From the NCBI RefSeq assembly GCF_004349105.1, contig NZ_SMLB01000058.1:1-37230 (forward strand): a stretch of 37,230 nt of DNA, written 5' to 3'. The DNA is from Jiangella aurantiaca. GTDB taxonomy: Bacteria > Actinomycetota > Actinomycetes > Jiangellales > Jiangellaceae. This document shows, one piece after another, positions 3,305-20,264 of this stretch. Under the pieces are notes generated by a model, which was not told the DNA's origin, did no database searches, and saw nothing but the letters and a program-made list of their open reading frames with translations. Made by a program: the position numbers and the translations under genes. Each line of letters starts with the position of its first letter. Within the stretch, counting starts at the first letter, position 1.

Positions 3305-4666
3305 TCACATGCCCTCGATGAGGCGGGCGACCCTCTCGTCGACGGACCGGAACGGGTCCTTGCACAACACCGTACGTTGCGCCTGGTCGTTGAGCTTCAG
3401 GTGTACCCAGTCGACGGTGAAGTCGCGGCGGCGCTCCTGGGCCCGCTTGATGAACTCGCCGCGCAGCTTCGCCCGGGTGGTCTGCGGCGGCACCGACTTG
3501 GCTTCGAAGATCTCGACGTCGCGAGCCACTCGCTGCACCTGGCCGCGCTTCTCGAGCAGGTAGTACAGGCCGCGGCCGCGGTGGATGTCGTGGTAGGCGA
3601 GGTCGAGCTGCGCGACCCGCGGGTGGGTCAGCGTCATGTTGTGCTTGGCGCGGTAGCGCTCGATGAGGCGGTACTTCGTCACCCAGTCGATCTCGTTCTC
3701 GACCAGCGAGAGGTCAGCGGAGTCGATGGCCTTGATGGTCCGCTCCCACAGCTCCAGCACCCGCTGGATGGCCGGCGTGGCCAGCTCGCGCCGCTCGACG
3801 AAGTCGCGGGCCTTGGTGAAGTACTCCTCCTGGATCTCCAGCGCCGACGCCTCGCGGCCGCCCGCCAGCCGGACCTTGCGCCGGCCGGTGAGGTCGTGGC
3901 TGATCTCGCGGATGGCCCGGATGGGGTTCTCCAGGGTCATGTCGCGCAGCCCGACGCCGGCCTCGATCATGCGCAGCACGAGGTCAGTGGCGCCGACCTT
4001 GAGGAGGGTGGTGCACTCGTTCATGTTGGAGTCGCCGACGATGACGTGCAGCCGGCGGTAGCGCTCGGCGTCGGCGTGCGGCTCGTCGCGGGTGTTGATG
4101 ATGGGCCGGCTGCGGGTGGTGGCGCTGGAGACGCCCTCCCAGATGTGCTCGGCCCGCTGGCTGACGGCGAACACCGCGCCCCGCGGCGTCTGCAGCACCT
4201 TGCCGGCGCCGCAGATGATCTGCCGGGTGACCAGGAACGGGATCAGGATGTCGGCCAGCCGGGAGAACTCGCCGTGCCGGCCGACCAGGTAGTTCTCGTG
4301 GCAGCCGTAGGAATTGCCGGCGGAGTCGGTGTTGTTCTTGAACAGGTAGACGTCGCCGGCGATGCCCTCTTCGGCCAGCCGCTTCTCCGCGTCGACCAGC
4401 AGGCCCTCGAGGACCCGCTCACCGGCCTTGTCGTGGGTGACGAGGTCGGTGATGCTGTCGCACTCGGGCGTCGCGTACTCCGGGTGGCTGCCGACATCGA
4501 GGTAGAGCCGCGCGCCGTTGGACAGGAAGACGTTGCTGCTGCGGCCCCACGTAACGACCCGGCGGAACAGGTAACGGGCGACCTCGTCGGGTGACAGTCG
4601 CCGCTGCCCGCGGAACGTGCACGTGACGCCGTACTCGTTCTCGAGACCGAAGATGCGGCGATCCAT
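3305..4666 (-). CDS. pafA: Pup-protein ligase PafA
   Basis: The 453-residue protein is full length for PafA. It activates the C-terminal glutamate of Pup with ATP and forms an isopeptide bond to lysines on target proteins. The carboxylate-amine ligase fold shows FGLENEYG at residues 6-13, with metal-binding Glu9, and [16 protein letters not shown] at 54-69, with the conserved catalytic Asp57. The loop [19 protein letters not shown] and the motifs [13 protein letters not shown] and GDSNMNE follow, then the C-terminal domain with the DWVHLKL segment. It is distinguished from Dop by its shorter N-terminal region, which lacks the long insertion after the first motif. It lies 9 bp downstream of prcA in the same operon. 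Confidence 0.98.
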
Positions 4667-4675
4667 GGTTCGAGC

Positions 4676-5416
4676 CTAGTCGCCCGAGCCCTCGGAATCG
4701 GGCTGCGGTGAGGTCTCGGAACCGCCACGGGCGAGCAACGAGTCAAGGACCGGCCCGGTGAGGCGGCGGAACCGGCGCCGGGGCCGCTCGCGGTCGAGGA
4801 CGGCGACCTCGAGCGACGACGTCGCCAGCTGCCGCGGCTCGTCGGTGTCGCGGCCCAGTGCGTCGACGGCCAGCCGCAGCGAGCCCTCCAACGACGCGCC
4901 CTTCGTGAAGTGCTCGCTGACGTACTGGCCGACCTGCTCGGCGGCCCCGCCCATGACGGAGAAACCGCTGTCGGCCCAGACCGAGCCGTCGTAGGTGATG
5001 CGGTAGATCTGGTCGGCGTCAGTGGTCTGGCCGACCTCGGCCACCACGAGCTCGACCTCGTACGGCTTGGGGTCCTGAGTGAAGATGGTGCCCAGCGTCT
5101 GCGCGTACACGTTGGCCAGCGCCCGGCCCGACACGTCGACGCGGTCGTATGAGTATCCGCGCAGGTCGGCCAACCGCACCCCGGCCTGGCGGAGGATCTC
5201 GAACTCGTTGTACTTGCCGACCGCGGCGAACGCGATGCGGTCGTAGATCTCGCTGATCTTGTGCAGCGACGGCGACGGGCTCTCGGCGGCGAACAGGATG
5301 CCGCCCGCGTACTGGATCACGATGACCGACCGGCCGCGGGCGATGCCCTTGCGGGCGTAGTCGGCCCGGTCCTTCATGATCTGCTCGGGCGAGACGTATC
5401 CGAACTGCATCGACAC
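4676..5416 (-). CDS. prcA: Proteasome subunit alpha
   Basis: The 246-residue protein makes the outer rings of the 20S core, where they form the gate and dock the ARC ATPase. The N-terminal gating segment [21 protein letters not shown] is followed by [23 protein letters not shown], then [21 protein letters not shown] and the [25 protein letters not shown] core. No catalytic Thr is expected in alpha subunits. I chose the GTG at 5416, which has an AGAGGA ribosome site about 8 nt upstream. An ATG two codons later is possible. The Ser/Asp/Gly-rich tail after about residue 225 looks disordered. The gene lies between prcB (45 bp gap) and pafA (9 bp gap). Confidence 0.98.
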
Positions 5417-5461
5417 CGATGGGTCCTCTCGTACGGCGGGGAGCTGGGGGTGGGGACGGGG

Positions 5462-6304
5462 TCAGCGCAGCGGCGCGACCGGACCGTCGGGCCGGACGTC
5501 GCGGCCGGCGACGACCTCTTCGACGATCTGCGCGACGGCCTGCTCGTCCCGCTGCCGGTAGCCGGCGTCGTCGACCACCGCCACGATGGGGAAGATGCGC
5601 CGCTGCAGATCGGGCCCGCCGGTCGCGGAGTCGTCGTCGGCGGCGTCGTACAGCGCCTGGACGGTGACAGCGATGGCGTCGTCGGCCGTGAGATCGTCGC
5701 GATAGAGCTTCTTCAGCGCTCCGCGGGCGAACACCGAGCCGGAGCCGACCGAGAAGAACTGGTGCTCCTCGTACCGGCCGCCGGTGACGTCGTAGGAGAA
5801 GATGCGGCCGCTGCCGGTGCCGAGGTCGTAGCCGGCGAACAGCGGCACGACCGCCAGGCCCTGCATGGCCATGCCCAGGTTGCCGCGAATCATATGCGAC
5901 AGCCGGTTGGCCTTGCCCTCGAGCGACAGCACCGTGCCCTCGATCTTCTCGTAGTGTTCCAGCTCGAGCTGGAACAGCCGGATGAGCTCCAGGCCCAGCC
6001 CGGCCGCGCCCGCCATACCGACCGCGGAGTACTCGTCGGCTTGGAACACCTTCTGGATGTCGCGCTGGGCGATCATGTTGCCCATGGTGGCCCGCCGGTC
6101 GCCGGCCATGACCACCCCGCCCACGAACGTGGTGGCCACCAGCGTGGTGGCGTGCGGGGTCAGGCCCCCCAGATCGGCGCCCGCCGGGACCCGGTTTCCC
6201 GGCAGCAACTCGGGCGAGTGCTGCCGCAGGAACTCGGTGAACGACGACGTCCCCGCAGTCAGGAACTCCGCCGGCAGGCTGCCGATACGCGAGACATCAA
6301 CCAC
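5462..6304 (-). CDS. prcB: Proteasome subunit beta (catalytic)
   Basis: This 280-residue precursor has a 52-residue propeptide ending at LTPHA. Self-cleavage would expose the nucleophile Thr53 in [20 protein letters not shown], the standard N-terminal threonine hydrolase start. The Asp and Lys-equivalent positions of the active site are in the following GDRRAT and GMAGAAG regions. Inner-ring beta subunits degrade unfolded pupylated proteins. The gene starts with GTG immediately after the TAA of pup, with no spacing at all. The ribosome site must therefore lie inside the pup 3' end (GGCGGAGAG), which couples Pup and PrcB synthesis. Length and propeptide fit other actinobacterial PrcB proteins. 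Confidence 0.98.
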
Positions 6305-6514
6305 TTACTCTCCGCCCTTCTGCACGAACGACCGGACGAAGTCCTCGGCGTTCTCCTCCAGCACCTCGTCGATCTCGTCGAGGATGGAGTCGACGTCGTC
6401 GTCGATCTTGTCCTGCCGCTCCTTGAGCTCCTCGCTCGCCTCGGTCGCCTCGGTGTTCTCGACGTCCTCGTTCTTCCGGGTCTGCTTGTGACCACCGGTC
6501 GTCTCACGCGCCAT
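6305..6514 (-). CDS. pup: Prokaryotic ubiquitin-like protein Pup
   Basis: The 69-residue protein is highly acidic, with an N-terminal MARETTGGHKQTR and a central helical region, KERQDKIDDDVDSILDEIDE, which in Pup forms the coil that binds ARC. The C-terminus is QKGGE. It ends in Glu, not Gln, so PafA can use it without deamidation by Dop. I chose the ATG at 6514 because a GGAGG ribosome site lies about 8 nt upstream and the product matches the family N-terminus. Longer upstream starts would add a non-homologous extension. The stop codon directly abuts the prcB GTG. A 279-bp gap containing a dispersed repeat separates it from dop. Confidence 0.98.
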   Translation of the reverse strand: MARETTGGHKQTRKNEDVENTEATEASEELKERQDKIDDDVDSILDEIDEVLEENAEDFVRSFVQKGGE

Positions 6515-6545
6515 CGCCAACCTCCACCTGGTCGCCTTGAGAACG

Positions 6546-6551
6546 ACCCTA
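6546..6551 (-). promoter_or_regulatory. Candidate -10 element for pup-prcBA
   Basis: TAGGGT on the minus strand lies 32 bp before the pup ATG, a plausible distance for a short leader. The -35 region is unconvincing. The 279-bp dop-pup gap makes an internal promoter likely. Confidence 0.35.
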
Positions 6552-6637
6552 TCCAGGAGTGGTGACATCGTGCCGCCCCGGGACACCGGATCGGGCCAGA
6601 GATTTCCGACTTACGCCGACAGCGAAGCCGCCGCCGC

Positions 6638-6754
6638 GATCACGTTCACCACGAAATCTCGTGTCGCACTACGCCTGCAACCGTGTTGACGCTCGAGAAA
6701 TCCTCGTGGTCGCCCCGCCCAACGACACCGAACTCACACCGTCGCGTTGATCAT
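6638..6754 (+). repeat. Dispersed ~115-bp box, copy A (dop-pup gap)
   Basis: The segment runs from GATCACGTTC to GTTGATCAT. It matches, in inverted orientation, 18141-18255 over its full length with only scattered substitutions and one small indel. Shared blocks include CTACGCCTGCAA and GAACTCACACCGTCGCG. In this copy the 25-bp-stem hairpin that follows copy B is missing, although its first nine bases are present. The box lies in the leader region between dop and pup and could carry regulatory sites. A short open frame crosses both copies (YACNR-DA-EILV), but nothing indicates translation. Confidence 0.85.
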
Positions 6755-6793
6755 CGAACGACGCACCCCCAGCGATCTGCCGCGCTCCCCGGC

Positions 6794-8305
6794 TCAGCGC
6801 GATGTCAGGGCGCTGACCAGATCGAGGGCGGTGTCGCACTGGTCGAGCAGGTCGCCGACGTGGGCTTTGGTGCCGCGGTTGGGGTCGAGCGTGGGCACTC
6901 GCTGCAGCGCCTCGCGGCCGGGCAGGTCGAAGATCACCGAGTCCCACGACGCCGCCGCGATGGACTCGGCGTACTTGTCGAGGCAGCGGCCGCGGAAGTA
7001 CGCCCGGGTGTCCTCGGGCGGCAGGTGGACGGCGTCGTCGATCTCCTGGTCGGTGATGAGGCGCTGCATGCGGCCCTTGGCGACGAGCCGGCGGTAGAGG
7101 CCGCGCTCCGGCCGGATGTCGGCGTACTGCAGGTCGATGAGGTGCAGCTTCGGGTGCGTCCAGTCCATGCCGTCGCGGTCGCGGTACTGCTGCAGCAGCG
7201 ACAGTTTCGCCACCCAGTCGAGCTGGTCGGACAGCGACATCGGGTCGGTGGCCAGCGCCTGCAGGGTGCTCTCCCAGCGGGCCAGGACGTCGGCCGTGAC
7301 GGGGTCGGCGTCGGCCCCGTAGCGGTCCTCGACGTACTTGCGGGCCTGCTCGGCGTACTCGGTCTGCAGCTGGACGGCGGTGAGGCGGCGGCCGTCGGCC
7401 AGTTCGACGACGTGCTTGAGCGTCGGGTCGTGGGAGATGTCGTGCAGCGCGCCCACCGGCCGCGACACCGCGAGGTCGCCGCCGAGGAAACCGTCCTCGA
7501 TCATGGCCAGGACCAGCGCGGTCGTCCCCAGCTTGAGGTACGTCGAGATCTCGGAGAGGTTCGCGTCGCCGAGGATGACGTGCAGGCGGCGGTAGCGCTC
7601 CGGGTCGGCGTGCGGCTCGTCGCGGGTGTTGATGATCGGCCGCTTGAGCGTCGTCTCGAGGCCGACCTCGACCTCGAAGTAGTCGGCGCGCTGGGAGATC
7701 TGGAAGCCGTGGCCGCTGCCGTCCTGGCCGATGCCGACCCGGCCGGCGCCGCAGATGACCTGCCGCGACACGAAGAACGGGATGAGGTGCCGGACGATGT
7801 CGGCGAACGGCGTCGACCGGTTCATCAGGTAGTTCTCGTGGCAGCCGTACGAGGCGCCCTTGTTGTCGGTGTTGTTCTTGTACAGCTGGATGGGCTGCGC
7901 GCCGGGCAGCCGGCCGGCCCAGCTGGCCGCCACGCCCATGATCGCCTCGCCGGCCTTGTCCCAGATGACGGCGTCGCGCGGCGAGGTGACCTCGGGCGAG
8001 GAGTACTCCGGGTGGGCGTGGTCGACGTAGAGCCGCGCGCCGTTGGTGAGGATGAGGTTGGCCAGCCCGATCTCCTCGTCGGTGAGCTGGCTCGGATCGG
8101 CACCACCGCGGGAGAGCTCGAACCCGCGGGCGTCGCGCAGCGGGTTCTCCTCCTCGAAGTCCCACCGCGCCCGCCGCGCGTGCGCGCGCTGCGCCGCGTA
8201 GCCGTTGACCACCTGCGACGAGGCCAGCATGGAGTTGGCCGCAGGATTGCTGGGCACCGAGATGCCGTACTCGGTCTCGATCCCCATGATGCGCCGGGCA
8301 CTCAT
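6794..8305 (-). CDS. dop: Deamidase/depupylase Dop
   Basis: The 503-residue protein is full length for Dop, the PafA paralogue. It hydrolyses the Pup-lysine isopeptide bond and, in species with Pup-Gln, deamidates Pup. The N-terminal [12 protein letters not shown] contains the metal-binding Glu10. A Dop-type insertion spans residues ~35-75, and the catalytic Asp95 lies in [14 protein letters not shown]. Further family motifs are [44 protein letters not shown] and GDANLSE. Because the Pup encoded here already ends in Glu, the main role is probably depupylation and Pup recycling. The gene is upstream of pup in the same direction. Genes upstream of dop (GNAT, oxidoreductase) are not part of the canonical pathway. 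Confidence 0.98.
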
Positions 8306-17136: not shown

Positions 17137-18042
17137 ATGACCATCCGGACGCGCACCGCCCTCGGGGACGACGACCCCGGGGCCGAGCGCGTGCCGAGCC
17201 TGTCGCCGTCGCGCGCCGCCGACTTCATGACCTGCCCCCTGCTCTACCGCTTCCGCACCATCGACCGGCTGCCCGAGCCGCCCAGCTCCGAGGCCACCCG
17301 CGGCACCGTCGTGCACAGCGTGCTCGAGCGGCTGTACGACCTCCCGGCCGGCGAACGGACGCCCGGCCGCGCGACCGGGATGGTCCGGCCGGCGTGGGAC
17401 GAGCTGCTCGCGGCCGAGCCCGCGGTGGCCGAGCTGTTCGCCGACGACGAGGACGGCTCGGCACTCGCGGCCTGGCTGACCAGCGCCGAAGACCTCGTCG
17501 AGCGGTACTTCGCGCTCGAGGACCCACGCCGCCTCGAGCCGGCCGAGCGCGAGCTGTACGTCGAGACGACGCTCGACTCCGGGCTGCGCCTGCGCGGCTA
17601 CGTCGACCGCCTCGACCGCGCGGAGGCCTCGGGCGACCTCCGCGTCGTCGACTACAAGACCGGCAAGGCGCCGCGGGCCGGGTTCGAGCAGCGGGCGATG
17701 TTCCAGATGCGGTTCTACGCGCTGGTGCTGTGGCGGCTGCACGGGCGGGTGCCGCGGCTGCTGCAGCTGATCTATCTCGGCAGCGGTGAGCTGCTGCGGT
17801 ACGAGCCCGACGAGGCCGACCTGCGGGCGACGGAGCGCAAGCTGGCCGCGCTGTGGGCGGCCATCGAGCGGGCCGCCGCGACCGGCGACTGGCGGGCCAA
17901 CCCCAGCCGGCTGTGCGACTGGTGCTCGCACCAGGCGCTCTGCCCGGCCTACGGCGGCACCCCGCCGCCGCTCCCGGAACGCGTCGACACCACGGACGAC
18001 GACGAGGCCCCCTCGCCCCGCACCTCCCCCGTCGACGCCTGA
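17137..18042 (+). CDS. RecB/AddB-like PD-(D/E)XK exonuclease with probable 4Fe-4S cluster
   Basis: The 301-residue protein is a stand-alone nuclease domain of the RecB family (PDDEXK_1). His60 in RGTVVHSVLERLYD and Asp157 in GYVDRLD are present. Asp172 and Lys174 in VVDYKTGKAP supply the metal and catalytic residues. A QxxxY-type helix (MFQMRFYALVL) follows. Four cysteines, Cys33 in MTCPLLYRF and Cys260, Cys263 and Cys269 in CDWCSHQALCP, have the spacing of the iron-sulfur staple in AddB and Cas4. No helicase domain is attached. It likely acts on DNA ends in repair. No cas genes are nearby. It is conserved beside trmI/arc in many actinobacteria. Confidence 0.94.
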   Translation: MTIRTRTALGDDDPGAERVPSLSPSRAADFMTCPLLYRFRTIDRLPEPPSSEATRGTVVHSVLERLYDLPAGERTPGRATGMVRPAWDELLAAEPAVAELFADDEDGSALAAWLTSAEDLVERYFALEDPRRLEPAERELYVETTLDSGLRLRGYVDRLDRAEASGDLRVVDYKTGKAPRAGFEQRAMFQMRFYALVLWRLHGRVPRLLQLIYLGSGELLRYEPDEADLRATERKLAALWAAIERAAATGDWRANPSRLCDWCSHQALCPAYGGTPPPLPERVDTTDDDEAPSPRTSPVDA

Positions 18043-18088
18043 CGCGCGCTCGGCCGGGCGCCCGTACTTCCGCACGACCCGCCACGAT

Positions 18089-18149
18089 GTTGATCATGGA
18101 GGAATCGGGGTTCACAGTACCGCGGAACCCCGATTCCTCCATGATCAAC
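18089..18149. repeat. Dispersed 25-bp-stem hairpin, copy 2
   Basis: Arms 18089-18113 and 18125-18149 are perfect inverted repeats with an 11-nt loop. The arm sequence equals copy 1 (16-76) except for an A-to-G change balanced by T-to-C in the other arm. It starts 47 bp after the stop codon of the RecB-like gene, again just 3' of a gene, so a terminator-like role is plausible. Confidence 0.9.
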
Positions 18150-18255
18150 GCGACGGTGTGAGTTCGCTGTCGTTGGCGGGGGATCACGAGGATCTCCCCA
18201 GCGTCACCACGATTGCAGGCGTAGTCCGACACGAGATTACGTAGCGAACGTGATC
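18141..18255 (-). repeat. Dispersed ~115-bp box, copy B
   Basis: The reverse complement of this segment aligns over its length with 6638-6754. On its own strand the box leads straight into the 25-bp-stem hairpin, so the two form a composite element here. Confidence 0.85.
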
Positions 18256-18340
18256 AATTGCGGCTGTCGACCCGTTCCGTGCGTCGGTCGTGTCTCGTAC
18301 GCCGGGGGTGGCCGCGTTGGCGGGGATTGGCGCGTTGGCC

Positions 18341-18468
18341 GTCCCCCCTGCTGCCCATTCTCTTGGCCGCGCACGCGCGCCTCAAGCGGACTATTTGGGC
18401 GCTCCGCGCCGGCGATGACCGCTTGACCCGCGCGCACGCGGCCTAAGTACAGGCAGCTATCAGGGGAC
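18341..18468 (+). repeat. Structured ~128-nt element, left copy
   Basis: The element begins GTCCCC and ends GGGGAC, with further pairing of CTGCTGCC and GGCAGC inside the ends. An inner outer-stem (TCAAGCGG 18382-18389 with CCGCTTGA 18419-18426) encloses an apical hairpin GGCGC-TCC-GCGCC (18398-18410). The reverse complement of 18706-18832 is homologous and folds the same way. Confidence 0.8.
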
Positions 18469-18554
18469 CGGGGGAAGAGCGGGCACAGCCCGCCGTGCAC
18501 CGTTCGCCGGTGTCCACGTGGTGAGACTTCACCGACGATTCGGGGTCCATCACC

Positions 18555-18608
18555 AGGCGTTCTCCCGCTTCACCAGGCATGCATTCGTGGTAGAGCGGGA
18601 GAACGCCT
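18555..18608. repeat. 15-bp perfect inverted repeat between the facing elements
   Basis: AGGCGTTCTCCCGCT (18555-18569) pairs perfectly with 18594-18608 around a 24-nt loop that contains GCATGC and a possible ACCA/TGGT inner pairing. It could be a bidirectional terminator or a recognition site. Confidence 0.75.
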
Positions 18609-18705
18609 AGCGACGTACGGAATGGTTGATGATCATCGCTGTCCACAAGCACCAACGGCACACCGAACCACGCCAGGTGGCCTTGAGGTGTGCCCCGACT
18701 CGCCC

Positions 18706-18832
18706 GTCCCCTGATAGCTGCCCGTTCTTGACCGCGGGCGCGCGGGTCAAGTCCGCCTCGTCGTCGCGAAGCGACCCCATCTGCGGACTTGAGGCGCGCG
18801 TTCGCGGCAAGAGAATGGGGCAGCAGGGGGAC
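18706..18832 (-). repeat. Structured ~127-nt element, right copy (inverted)
   Basis: This is the inverted homologue of 18341-18468. The outer stem TCAAGTCCGC (18747-18756) pairs with GCGGACTTGA (18783-18792), and the apical hairpin is GTCGC-GAA-GCGAC (18763-18775). A further stem CTTGACC/GGTCAAG lies at about 18727-18750. Stem sequences differ from the left copy while pairing is kept. Confidence 0.8.
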
Positions 18833-18889
18833 GGCGAACGGTACAGAATCCGACGCACGTTCGCCCGACCAACGGAGCGCCCGGTCAAG

Positions 18890-18940
18890 CAGTCGGCCGA
18901 GTCAACCAGTCGGCCGGGCGAACCAGTCGGGCAGGCCAAC
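18890..18940. repeat. Three tandem 17-bp repeats upstream of the sensor kinase
   Basis: Units at 18890-18906, 18907-18923 and 18924-18940 share CAGTCGG at the start and AAC at the end. The third diverges in the middle. They end about 95 bp before the kinase GTG, a position suited to regulator binding. Confidence 0.8.
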
Positions 18941-19034
18941 GGGCCGCCTGGCCGGGATCCTCCTGCCGGTGGAGACCACAGCTCGCCGTCCAGGACGAGC
19001 CGCGGCCGGTGTGCGGCGGCCTACCGTTGATCGT

Positions 19035-20264
19035 GTGACGACGGCCCGCGCCAAGCTCTTCCCACGCATCGAACCGTGGCTGCTGGACGCGTCGATGACG
19101 ATCGTCCTGGCGGTGACGGGCGTCGTCGCGCTGTTCGTCTACACCGATCCCAGCGGCGTCGACTATGCGGATCCCGACGCGTTCGGCGTCGTGCTGGTGC
19201 TGGCCATCACCGCGCCGCTGATCGTCCGGCGGCGGTATCCCGTCGCGGTCGGGCTCGGCACGGCCGCCGGGATGCTGGCGTTCGTCGGCGTCGACTACGC
19301 CATGCCGACGGCCGCCGCCGTCCTCCTGATCGCCGTCTACAGCGCGGCCAACTACGCCGGGCTGGCGTCCTCGCTGCTGGTCACGGCCGCGCATATCGCC
19401 ACGTCCAGCGCCTACGCCGCGGCGAGCGCCGGCCGGCATCCCGAGCAATCGATGGACGTGCCTGCGAACGTCGTCATCAGCGGTCTGCTCATCCTCGGCG
19501 CCTGGGGCATCGGGCGGGCGGTACGCAGCCGGCGGCTCTACACGGCCGAGCTGGAGGACCGCGCCCGCCGTCTGGAGCGCGCCAACGACGTCGAGGTGCG
19601 GGCCGCCATCGCCGAGGAGCGCTCGCGCATCGCCCGTGAGCTGCACGACGTCGTCGCGCACCACGTGTCCGTCATGACGGTGCAGGCTGCCGGCGCACGG
19701 CGCTCGCTGCACCGCGACGTCGACCGCACGGCCGACGCGCTGGCGGCGATCGAAGAGATCGGCCGGTCCGCGCTGGCGGAGATGCGCCGTGTCGTCGGTG
19801 TCCTGCGCAGCCCCGACGGCGACGACCGCGGCGCCCAGCCGGCCACGCTGGCGCCGCAGCCGGGGCTCGGCGACCTCGCCCAACTGGCCGAGCAGATGCG
19901 CGACGCCGGGCTGCCGGTGGACGTGACCATCGATGGCGAGCCGGGCGCGGTCCCCGTCGGCGTCGACCTCGCCGCGTTCCGGGTCATCCAGGAGGCGCTG
20001 ACGAACACCATCAAGCACGCCGGCCCCTCCACGGCCGCCGTCAACGTCCGGTACCTGCCGTCGGAGGTGCACGTCGAGATCTGCGACGACGGCCGCGGCG
20101 TCGCGGCAGCGCTGGAGGGGCGCCGGCCCGGCCACGGACTGCTGGGCATGCGCGAGCGGGTGGCCCTCTATGGTGGAACCCTCGCGGCCGGACCACGCCG
20201 CGGCGGCGGCTACGAGGTGCGGGCGAAGATCCCGTACGACGGCAACGGAACGGTGACGAGATGA
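19035..20264 (+). CDS. NarL-type two-component sensor histidine kinase
   Basis: The 409-residue protein starts with about five membrane segments (residues ~15-165: MTIVLAVTGVVALFVY, FGVVLVLAITAPLIV, and others) with short loops, so little extracellular sensing domain is visible. The HisKA_3 dimerisation region contains EERSRIARELHDVVAHHVSV with phospho-acceptor His204. The ATP-binding domain shows FRVIQEALTNTIKHA (N box), ICDDGRGV and GHGLLGMRERV. I chose the GTG at 19035 because the upstream in-frame sequence runs through the repeats and is not homologous. It ends in ATGA shared with the micro-ORF that leads to the response regulator. The signal is unknown. Confidence 0.95.
   Translation: MTTARAKLFPRIEPWLLDASMTIVLAVTGVVALFVYTDPSGVDYADPDAFGVVLVLAITAPLIVRRRYPVAVGLGTAAGMLAFVGVDYAMPTAAAVLLIAVYSAANYAGLASSLLVTAAHIATSSAYAAASAGRHPEQSMDVPANVVISGLLILGAWGIGRAVRSRRLYTAELEDRARRLERANDVEVRAAIAEERSRIARELHDVVAHHVSVMTVQAAGARRSLHRDVDRTADALAAIEEIGRSALAEMRRVVGVLRSPDGDDRGAQPATLAPQPGLGDLAQLAEQMRDAGLPVDVTIDGEPGAVPVGVDLAAFRVIQEALTNTIKHAGPSTAAVNVRYLPSEVHVEICDDGRGVAAALEGRRPGHGLLGMRERVALYGGTLAAGPRRGGGYEVRAKIPYDGNGTVTR

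Follow-up and report, generated by a model that had tools for sequence, protein, structure and literature searches.

A composite palindromic repeat with long hairpin arms in the intergenic regions of Jiangella

Background

In this study, we report that two facing hairpins of about 128 nt, located in a 37,230-nt stretch of the Jiangella aurantiaca genome (hereafter the window), are the arms of a single dyad-symmetric composite unit of about 490 bp (18341-18832). We regard this unit, with a probability of about 0.7, as a non-autonomous, mobile and mosaic palindromic repeat of Jiangella, which would be copied in trans by a candidate enzyme other than a Y1 transposase that recognises its fold. In favour of this reading, the unit is repeated, its presence differs between species, genes lie back to back where it is absent, and its fold is kept. 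A preliminary description of the window, made from the sequence alone, had taken the hairpins for two MITE- or REP-type elements or for a structured RNA; the repeat-like kind of the element was borne out, whereas the two elements proved to be one composite unit and the length, stem, tag and transposase of tagged REPs do not fit it.

Among the publications listed in our literature searches, none was seen to describe this repeat, and the accessible part of the J. gansuensis genome paper (PMC5292007) names no repeat family. Related Jiangella species with between 0 and 231 inner ends of the unit, with empty and filled sites and with many stem replacements, constitute a natural experiment, in which it becomes testable what copies palindromic repeats without a REP transposase, and whether a fold is kept for a copying enzyme or for a transcript. 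The repeat also accounts for some of the long intergenic spaces in Jiangella.

Methods

The genome of J. aurantiaca (the own genome) was compared with those of 11 other Jiangella (G001 to G011, among them J. rhizosphaerae, G002, and J. ureilytica, G011). Individual loci are designated by L numbers, and those from named species are mainly from J. rhizosphaerae. Genes at these loci were called using our own codon-score script. Empty and filled sites were compared by local matches. Folding scores of the two arms in the window were obtained against 200 dinucleotide shuffles.

Results and discussion

Organisation of the unit

The left arm (18341-18468, plus strand) is a hairpin of about 125 nt, with GTCCCC at its outer and CAGCTATCAGGGGAC at its inner end. 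The right arm (18706-18832, minus strand) was recovered as a minus-strand BLAST match of the left arm (81% identity, E 5.2e-24), so the two copies are inverted homologues lying where the preliminary description had placed them. The ends that it had described, the TCAAG/CTTGA stem and the 5-bp apical stem with its 3-nt loop were all seen in the fold of each copy. The inner part of the left arm (18382-18426, plus strand) consists of a TCAAGCGG/CCGCTTGA stem and an apical GGCGC/GCGCC stem, and that of the right arm (18747-18792, minus strand) of a TCAAGTCCGC/GCGGACTTGA stem and an apical GTCGC/GCGAC stem; the pair-preserving replacements noted earlier are thus present in the sequence.

The arms are located in a 1-kb gap between a gene for a PD-(D/E)XK nuclease (17137-18042, plus strand) and a histidine kinase gene, also on the plus strand. 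Of the 27 predicted genes of the window, 26 were compared with Pfam together with two further ORFs, and none showed a transposase domain, in agreement with the earlier remark that no transposase is nearby. The 237 bases separating the arms (18469-18705) are also conserved in other copies, and a BLAST search with this middle part only recovered most of the own-genome loci that were read. The two hairpins are therefore arms of one unit, with the order arm, core, inverted arm. When the 492-bp unit was compared with its own reverse complement, a match of 70% was obtained over positions 4-490, and full units in the own genome measure about 460-540 bp. The core contains a long hairpin of its own (AGGCGTTCTCCCGC.../...GCGGGAGAACGCCT, 18555-18608), and the 80-nt piece around it (18546-18625) has a folding z score of -6.1. 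A linker of GTTSGCC-like short repeats (18300-18340, plus strand) precedes the left arm, and many copies have such a linker beyond their outer end.

Beyond the unit, the intergenic block of the window (18054-18954) holds a separate perfect hairpin (18089-18149, beginning GTTGATCATGGAGG), a degenerate core-like copy adjoining the unit (18155-18269, plus strand, 46 bits with the unit model) and short linker repeats. The motif TTGATCATGGAG of the separate hairpin recurs at window position 17 and at other examined loci, and this hairpin possibly belongs to another repeat family. Degenerate core-type copies that have no arms are found at 6634-6771 of the window as well as at 18155-18269; the core hairpin may represent an older family than the arms. 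Core-like short hairpins of the form TCACCAGGC...GCCTGGTGA were also seen beyond Jiangella, in further genera of its family (L052-L055), which makes the core hairpin type the wider one.

Copies in Jiangella and beyond

A lack of further copies in the genome would have counted against the preliminary description; the left arm alone gave 48 BLAST matches in the 6.6-Mb own genome. A profile identified 47 arms or arm pieces in the window and 31 other places of this genome. Some of the units are complete, while others have one arm cut or missing, and such losses often fall at hairpin boundaries.

With the unit as query, BLAST matches were obtained in all 12 Jiangella genomes, the best ones in G003 and G006 falling in the core (L050, L051). 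Records carrying the end pattern were, among the matches listed, all from Jiangella and comprised at least 106 loci. Inner ends with at most 2 mismatches numbered 40 in the own genome, 231 in J. rhizosphaerae, 80 in G009, 65 in J. ureilytica, 63 in G007, 59 in G008, 46 in G001, 32 in G005, 15 in G004, 14 in G010, 1 in G006 and 0 in G003; the reversed pattern, used as control, gave no match in any of the 12 genomes. Outer ends with at most 1 mismatch showed the same distribution (53 in the own genome, 235 in J. rhizosphaerae, 5 in G006 and 0 in G003, against 0-2 for the reversed control). The covariance-model search of relatives that had been suggested at the outset matched in 11 of the 12 Jiangella genomes: ten gave at least 40-43 arms each and G003 one weak match, G006 giving none, and outside the genus one or two weak matches were found in 3 of 10 relatives from the family and 1 of 58 from the class, all these counts being lower bounds from strict filters and a limited number of candidates per genome (at most 43). 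Judged from these searches, the arm family appears essentially confined to Jiangella. An origin from plasmids or phages was rejected, as no match was found in plasmid or phage collections.

The 231 inner ends of J. rhizosphaerae correspond to about 115 units. Compared with the 0-1 ends of G003 and G006, this copy number represents a strong lineage-specific expansion. In J. ureilytica, tandem outer ends about 102 bp apart were observed (L102, 4530-4757; L129, 4710-4836), a pattern that the head-to-tail duplication of part of an arm would leave.

Exchange of arms between units

In 62 oriented units, the similarities of left arm, core and right arm were correlated (r 0.23, 0.29 and 0.48, p 0.001), which indicates that units tend to be copied whole. 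Nevertheless, 12 of 60 pairs of units with left arms at least 95% alike had right arms less than 75% alike, and the reverse case, with right arms alike and left arms unlike, was met in 10 of 33 pairs. The nearest arm in another locus was at the median 95% alike, and 28 of 200 arms had one at least 98% alike. The two arms within a unit, on the other hand, were no more similar (0.748, 69 units) than arms drawn at random (0.748), and the idea that they are twins produced by recent inverted duplication was therefore rejected. The family appears to be a mosaic, in which different kinds of arm are combined in different units.

Occupied and empty sites

In none of the 11 other Jiangella genomes was the element found in the 1.5 kb that follow the nuclease gene; in J. 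rhizosphaerae, J. ureilytica and G001, copies lie about 1.2 kb upstream of this gene. The neighbours of the window site are separated by 1 bp in G005, 15 bp in G006 and 41 bp in G003, compared with about 0.9 kb in the window, so that the whole intergenic block is without counterpart at the orthologous site in these three genomes. Between the same flanks, G001, G007, G008 and J. ureilytica have 0.7-1.3 kb without a match to the element, and the far flank was not found in J. rhizosphaerae, G004, G009 or G010. The exact ends and a target duplication at the window site are undefined, because the extra block holds linkers and other repeats.

At a second site (L018), convergent genes lie 6-46 bp apart and element-free in 7 of the 12 genomes. 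The corresponding gap measures 1,010 bp in the own genome, where it contains a full unit, 463 bp in J. rhizosphaerae, where a core-type copy is all that is present, and 320 bp in G003, where no match to the element was obtained; the far gene was not found in G007 or in G006, the latter with a partial match. Some sites are occupied in two species (L009/L065, L015/L089 and L016/L126), and there the unit and its linkers differ more than the flanking genes do, which may reflect independent arrival, conversion or fast change. Units thus appear to come and go between species, with gain and loss only partly separable on these comparisons, and some sites seem to have been used more than once.

Position relative to genes

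Among 103 elements with a predicted gene on both sides, a set that includes partial and core-type copies and from which copies cut by a locus end or not flanked by genes on both sides were dropped before counting, the flanking genes were convergent in 44 cases, tandem in 50 and divergent in 9. Element-free gaps of at least 150 bp in the same loci were convergent in 24, tandem in 67 and divergent in 39 of 130 cases, so the elements are enriched between convergent genes (Fisher p 8e-5) and depleted between divergent ones (Fisher p 7e-5). All element-free neighbours taken together comprised 56 convergent, 257 tandem and 86 divergent pairs of 399. The bias was weaker for the own-genome copies alone (14 convergent, 14 tandem, 5 divergent). 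The median distance from element to neighbouring genes was about 100 bp, 4 of the 103 elements overlapped a predicted gene by more than 100 bp, and in 11 convergent cases both stop codons were within 75 bp of the element. The elements are mostly located near gene 3' ends. Between tandem genes, the core pointed in the direction of the genes in 20 cases and against it in 21, and its orientation is thus unrelated to theirs.

Fold and covariation of the arms

Folded as RNA, the left arm had z scores of -6.1 (outer to inner) and -8.3 (other strand), the right arm -8.0 and -7.6, respectively, and none of the shuffles folded as well as either arm. For 40 arms from 63 representatives, 91.0% of cells in a 46-pair hairpin were paired, so that changes in the extra copies keep pairing. 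Two-sided changes affected 20 pairs (13.0 in shuffled data) and 138 cells (55.9 shuffled, 0 of 500 shuffles as high), supporting the selection on structure that the preliminary description had proposed from two copies, and further pair types numbered 43 (35.7 shuffled, 2 of 500 shuffles as high). The covariation score was 0.194, against 0.028-0.056 when partners were slid; since the structure was derived from the same sequences that were tested, and shuffling and sliding are uncorrected for relatedness, weight is placed on this slid control and on the effect size.

The middle stem could be cut out at fixed motifs in 184 of 200 arms and occurred in 141 distinct forms, many of them fully complementary. 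TCAAG/CTTGA, the adjoining 2x2 CC/CC loop and the outer stem are nearly invariant, the loop being kept in 174 of the 192 scorable arms of the 200. Blind correction of the palindrome would erase this loop, and pairing kept by selection is therefore the better reading.

The two strands are not equivalent. Isolated mismatches in the 141 forms of the middle stem were A.C in 61 cases and G.T in 5, which places G.T (or G.U) on the inner-to-outer strand, and this strand gave the better fold for 122 of 199 arms when treated as RNA and for 156 of 199 when treated as DNA. At the apex (positions 50-68) the mismatch bias was reversed relative to the middle stem. Among representatives, isolated mismatches of the whole arm numbered 76 A.C and 39 G.T, and all arm mismatches were about equal (131 A.C, 140 G.T). 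These data hint at one working strand and are no proof of RNA. The arm apex reads GCGAAGC on one strand at 18766-18772 of the window and in most short-loop arms, and GCTTCGC was present in 125 of 200 arms. GCGAAGC forms an unusually stable DNA mini-hairpin.

Relation to known repeat families

No Rfam model matched in the window at gathering score. A relaxed scan of 18000-19050 gave 8 hairpin matches (7 microRNA models and 1 sRNA model), all well below the cut-offs and taken as chance, and a known RNA was rejected.

The unit resembles REP, BIME and REPIN sequences as characterised in the accessible part of PMC3733652, being a high-copy intergenic palindrome, often in facing dimers, near stop codons and between convergent and tandem genes. 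The REPs of that text measure 20-40 bp, with stems of 5-13 bp and an unpaired GTAG or CGTC tag; the Jiangella arms, in contrast, measure about 125-140 nt with 46 modelled pairs, and the CGTC/GACG at their ends sits in the outer stem. The excerpt used of PMC1525189 describes REP repeats as landing sites for insertion sequences of the IS3, IS110, IS4, IS256 and IS5 types, and arms and cores serve as such sites here. By their description in the accessible part of PMC2229807, ERIC/IRU sequences are likewise intergenic palindromic repeats, of about 127 bp, for which the mobiliser is not known; they are enterobacterial, however, and in the Jiangella unit two arms face each other, in dyad symmetry, across a core that is itself conserved. 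MITEs such as RUP and Correia/NEMIS, in the same portion of that source, are short, non-coding, inverted at their ends and spread between genes, but in Jiangella the arms themselves are long structured hairpins. The MITE-type features of terminal inverted repeats (the unit ends being alike and inverted), short length and lack of coding capacity are present, although the unit has neither a defined target duplication nor an identified parent IS with matching ends. Pneumococcal BOX elements are modular composite intergenic repeats with structured parts. The Jiangella unit shares this composite and modular build in general description.

The best reading is that the unit is REP/BIME- or MITE-like in behaviour and far larger than the known small palindromic repeats. 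It departs from tagged REPs in length, stem, tag and transposase, the defining features that were tested, and assignment to the MITEs in the strict sense is not established.

Insertion sequences in arms and cores

Facing outer ends 1-7 kb apart, as expected of an autonomous parent, were sought in 191 loci and none were found. Facing outer ends 1.4-4.7 kb apart are frequent in G008. About 15 of these loci (L196-L212 region) were read and proved to be arms or cores interrupted by other transposons, so this wide spacing was rejected as an autonomous form. The interrupting transposons carry the domains PF13701, DUF4096, DDE_Tnp_4, Transposase_mut and rve/HTH_21. We take PF13701 to mark the IS1380 type and DUF4096 and DDE_Tnp_4 to mark IS5 types; Transposase_mut is presumably of the IS256 type and rve/HTH_21 of the IS3 type. 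Several IS types have used arms and cores as landing sites.

The IS1380 type was the commonest interrupter in those G008 loci, where 21 of its 22 ends abut CTNAG and one abuts GTTAG; its CTNAG targets lie near the arm base. G008 contains 11 full, nearly identical copies of it. Adjoining arm sequence was found for eight, namely by profile for L216, L227, L237, L239 and L240, by reading of the left flank for L238 and L241, and at the junction contained in L200 for L244; three copies (L235, L242 and L243) have none. The ends of this IS type (CCTCGATCC) differ from the arm ends, and its copies were therefore taken as insertions and not as the mobiliser, a decision which L206 makes less than certain. 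L206 (384-2258, G008) contains an IS3-type (rve) transposase gene between two intact arms, and of the loci seen it comes nearest to an autonomous form. A 1.36-kb part of it also occurs (98.4%) in the L211 unit with other neighbours, and because the same IS is found there in a different setting, the gene in L206 is read as an insertion into the core. The L206 transposase could nevertheless be a partner element.

Possible mode of spread

Under the preferred reading of a mobile repeat copied in trans, a putative enzyme other than a Y1 transposase would copy the units and would recognise the folded arm by its near-invariant TCAAG/CTTGA, CC/CC loop and outer stem; pairing rather than stem sequence would be kept for this reason. 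Insertions downstream of genes would be the least harmful, so that most surviving copies would be found there, where they may in addition serve as 3' ends of transcripts. The fold is probably the substrate of the mobiliser; it may have a role in the transcript (RNA 3' end), and selection may act on RNA or on folded DNA. A wider proposal, rather unlikely in our judgement, is that the unit exemplifies a class of elements in which a folded single strand is the substrate of a non-HUH (Y1) mobiliser, with fixed loops, variable stems, reshuffled arms and copying to gene 3' ends.

If the transcript were instead what is selected, the elements would be structured RNAs at mRNA 3' ends, acting between convergent genes as bidirectional transcription barriers or as stabilisers of 3' ends. 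The enrichment between convergent genes, the depletion between divergent ones, the 11 convergent cases with both stops within 75 bp and the 61 A.C to 5 G.T mismatches of the middle stem, which imply that G.U is tolerated on the other strand, all agree with this. We nevertheless hold it to be doubtful, though possible: most relatives are element-free at the examined sites, so that no particular gene needs the element; the favoured strand runs from inner to outer, whereas transcription from the nearest gene would read its first arm in the other sense; the bias is reversed at the apex and, over the whole arm, falls to 76 against 39 for isolated and 131 against 140 for all mismatches; the core lies in either orientation about equally often between tandem genes; and the arms in the window are not followed by a U tract.

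Template switching during replication between the two sides of a quasi-palindrome, by which changes are copied across, would give long stems with many alternative and often fully complementary sequences, just as observed. The same process should erase internal loops, yet CC/CC persists in 174 of 192 arms and TCAAG/CTTGA hardly changes. As the origin of the fold it is improbable, although the fold may in part be a by-product of template-switch repair. Still less can be said for a REP/BIME family once moved by a RAYT-type Y1 transposase that has since been lost, which we consider very improbable. The facing dimers, the intergenic position at gene 3' ends and the use by IS elements as landing sites are all REP-like, but length, stem and tag do not fit, and the Y1 transposase domain PF01797, at E 0.001, matched in none of the 12 Jiangella genomes (the control matched in 5 of 14), J. 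rhizosphaerae with its 231 inner ends included. A RAYT system, as in REPIN/RAYT pairs, was rejected on this result.

Elsewhere in the window, upstream of the unit, a Pup-proteasome cluster (3305-8305) comprises Pup, two Pup-ligase-type proteins and two proteasome subunits, an arrangement ordinary for actinobacteria.
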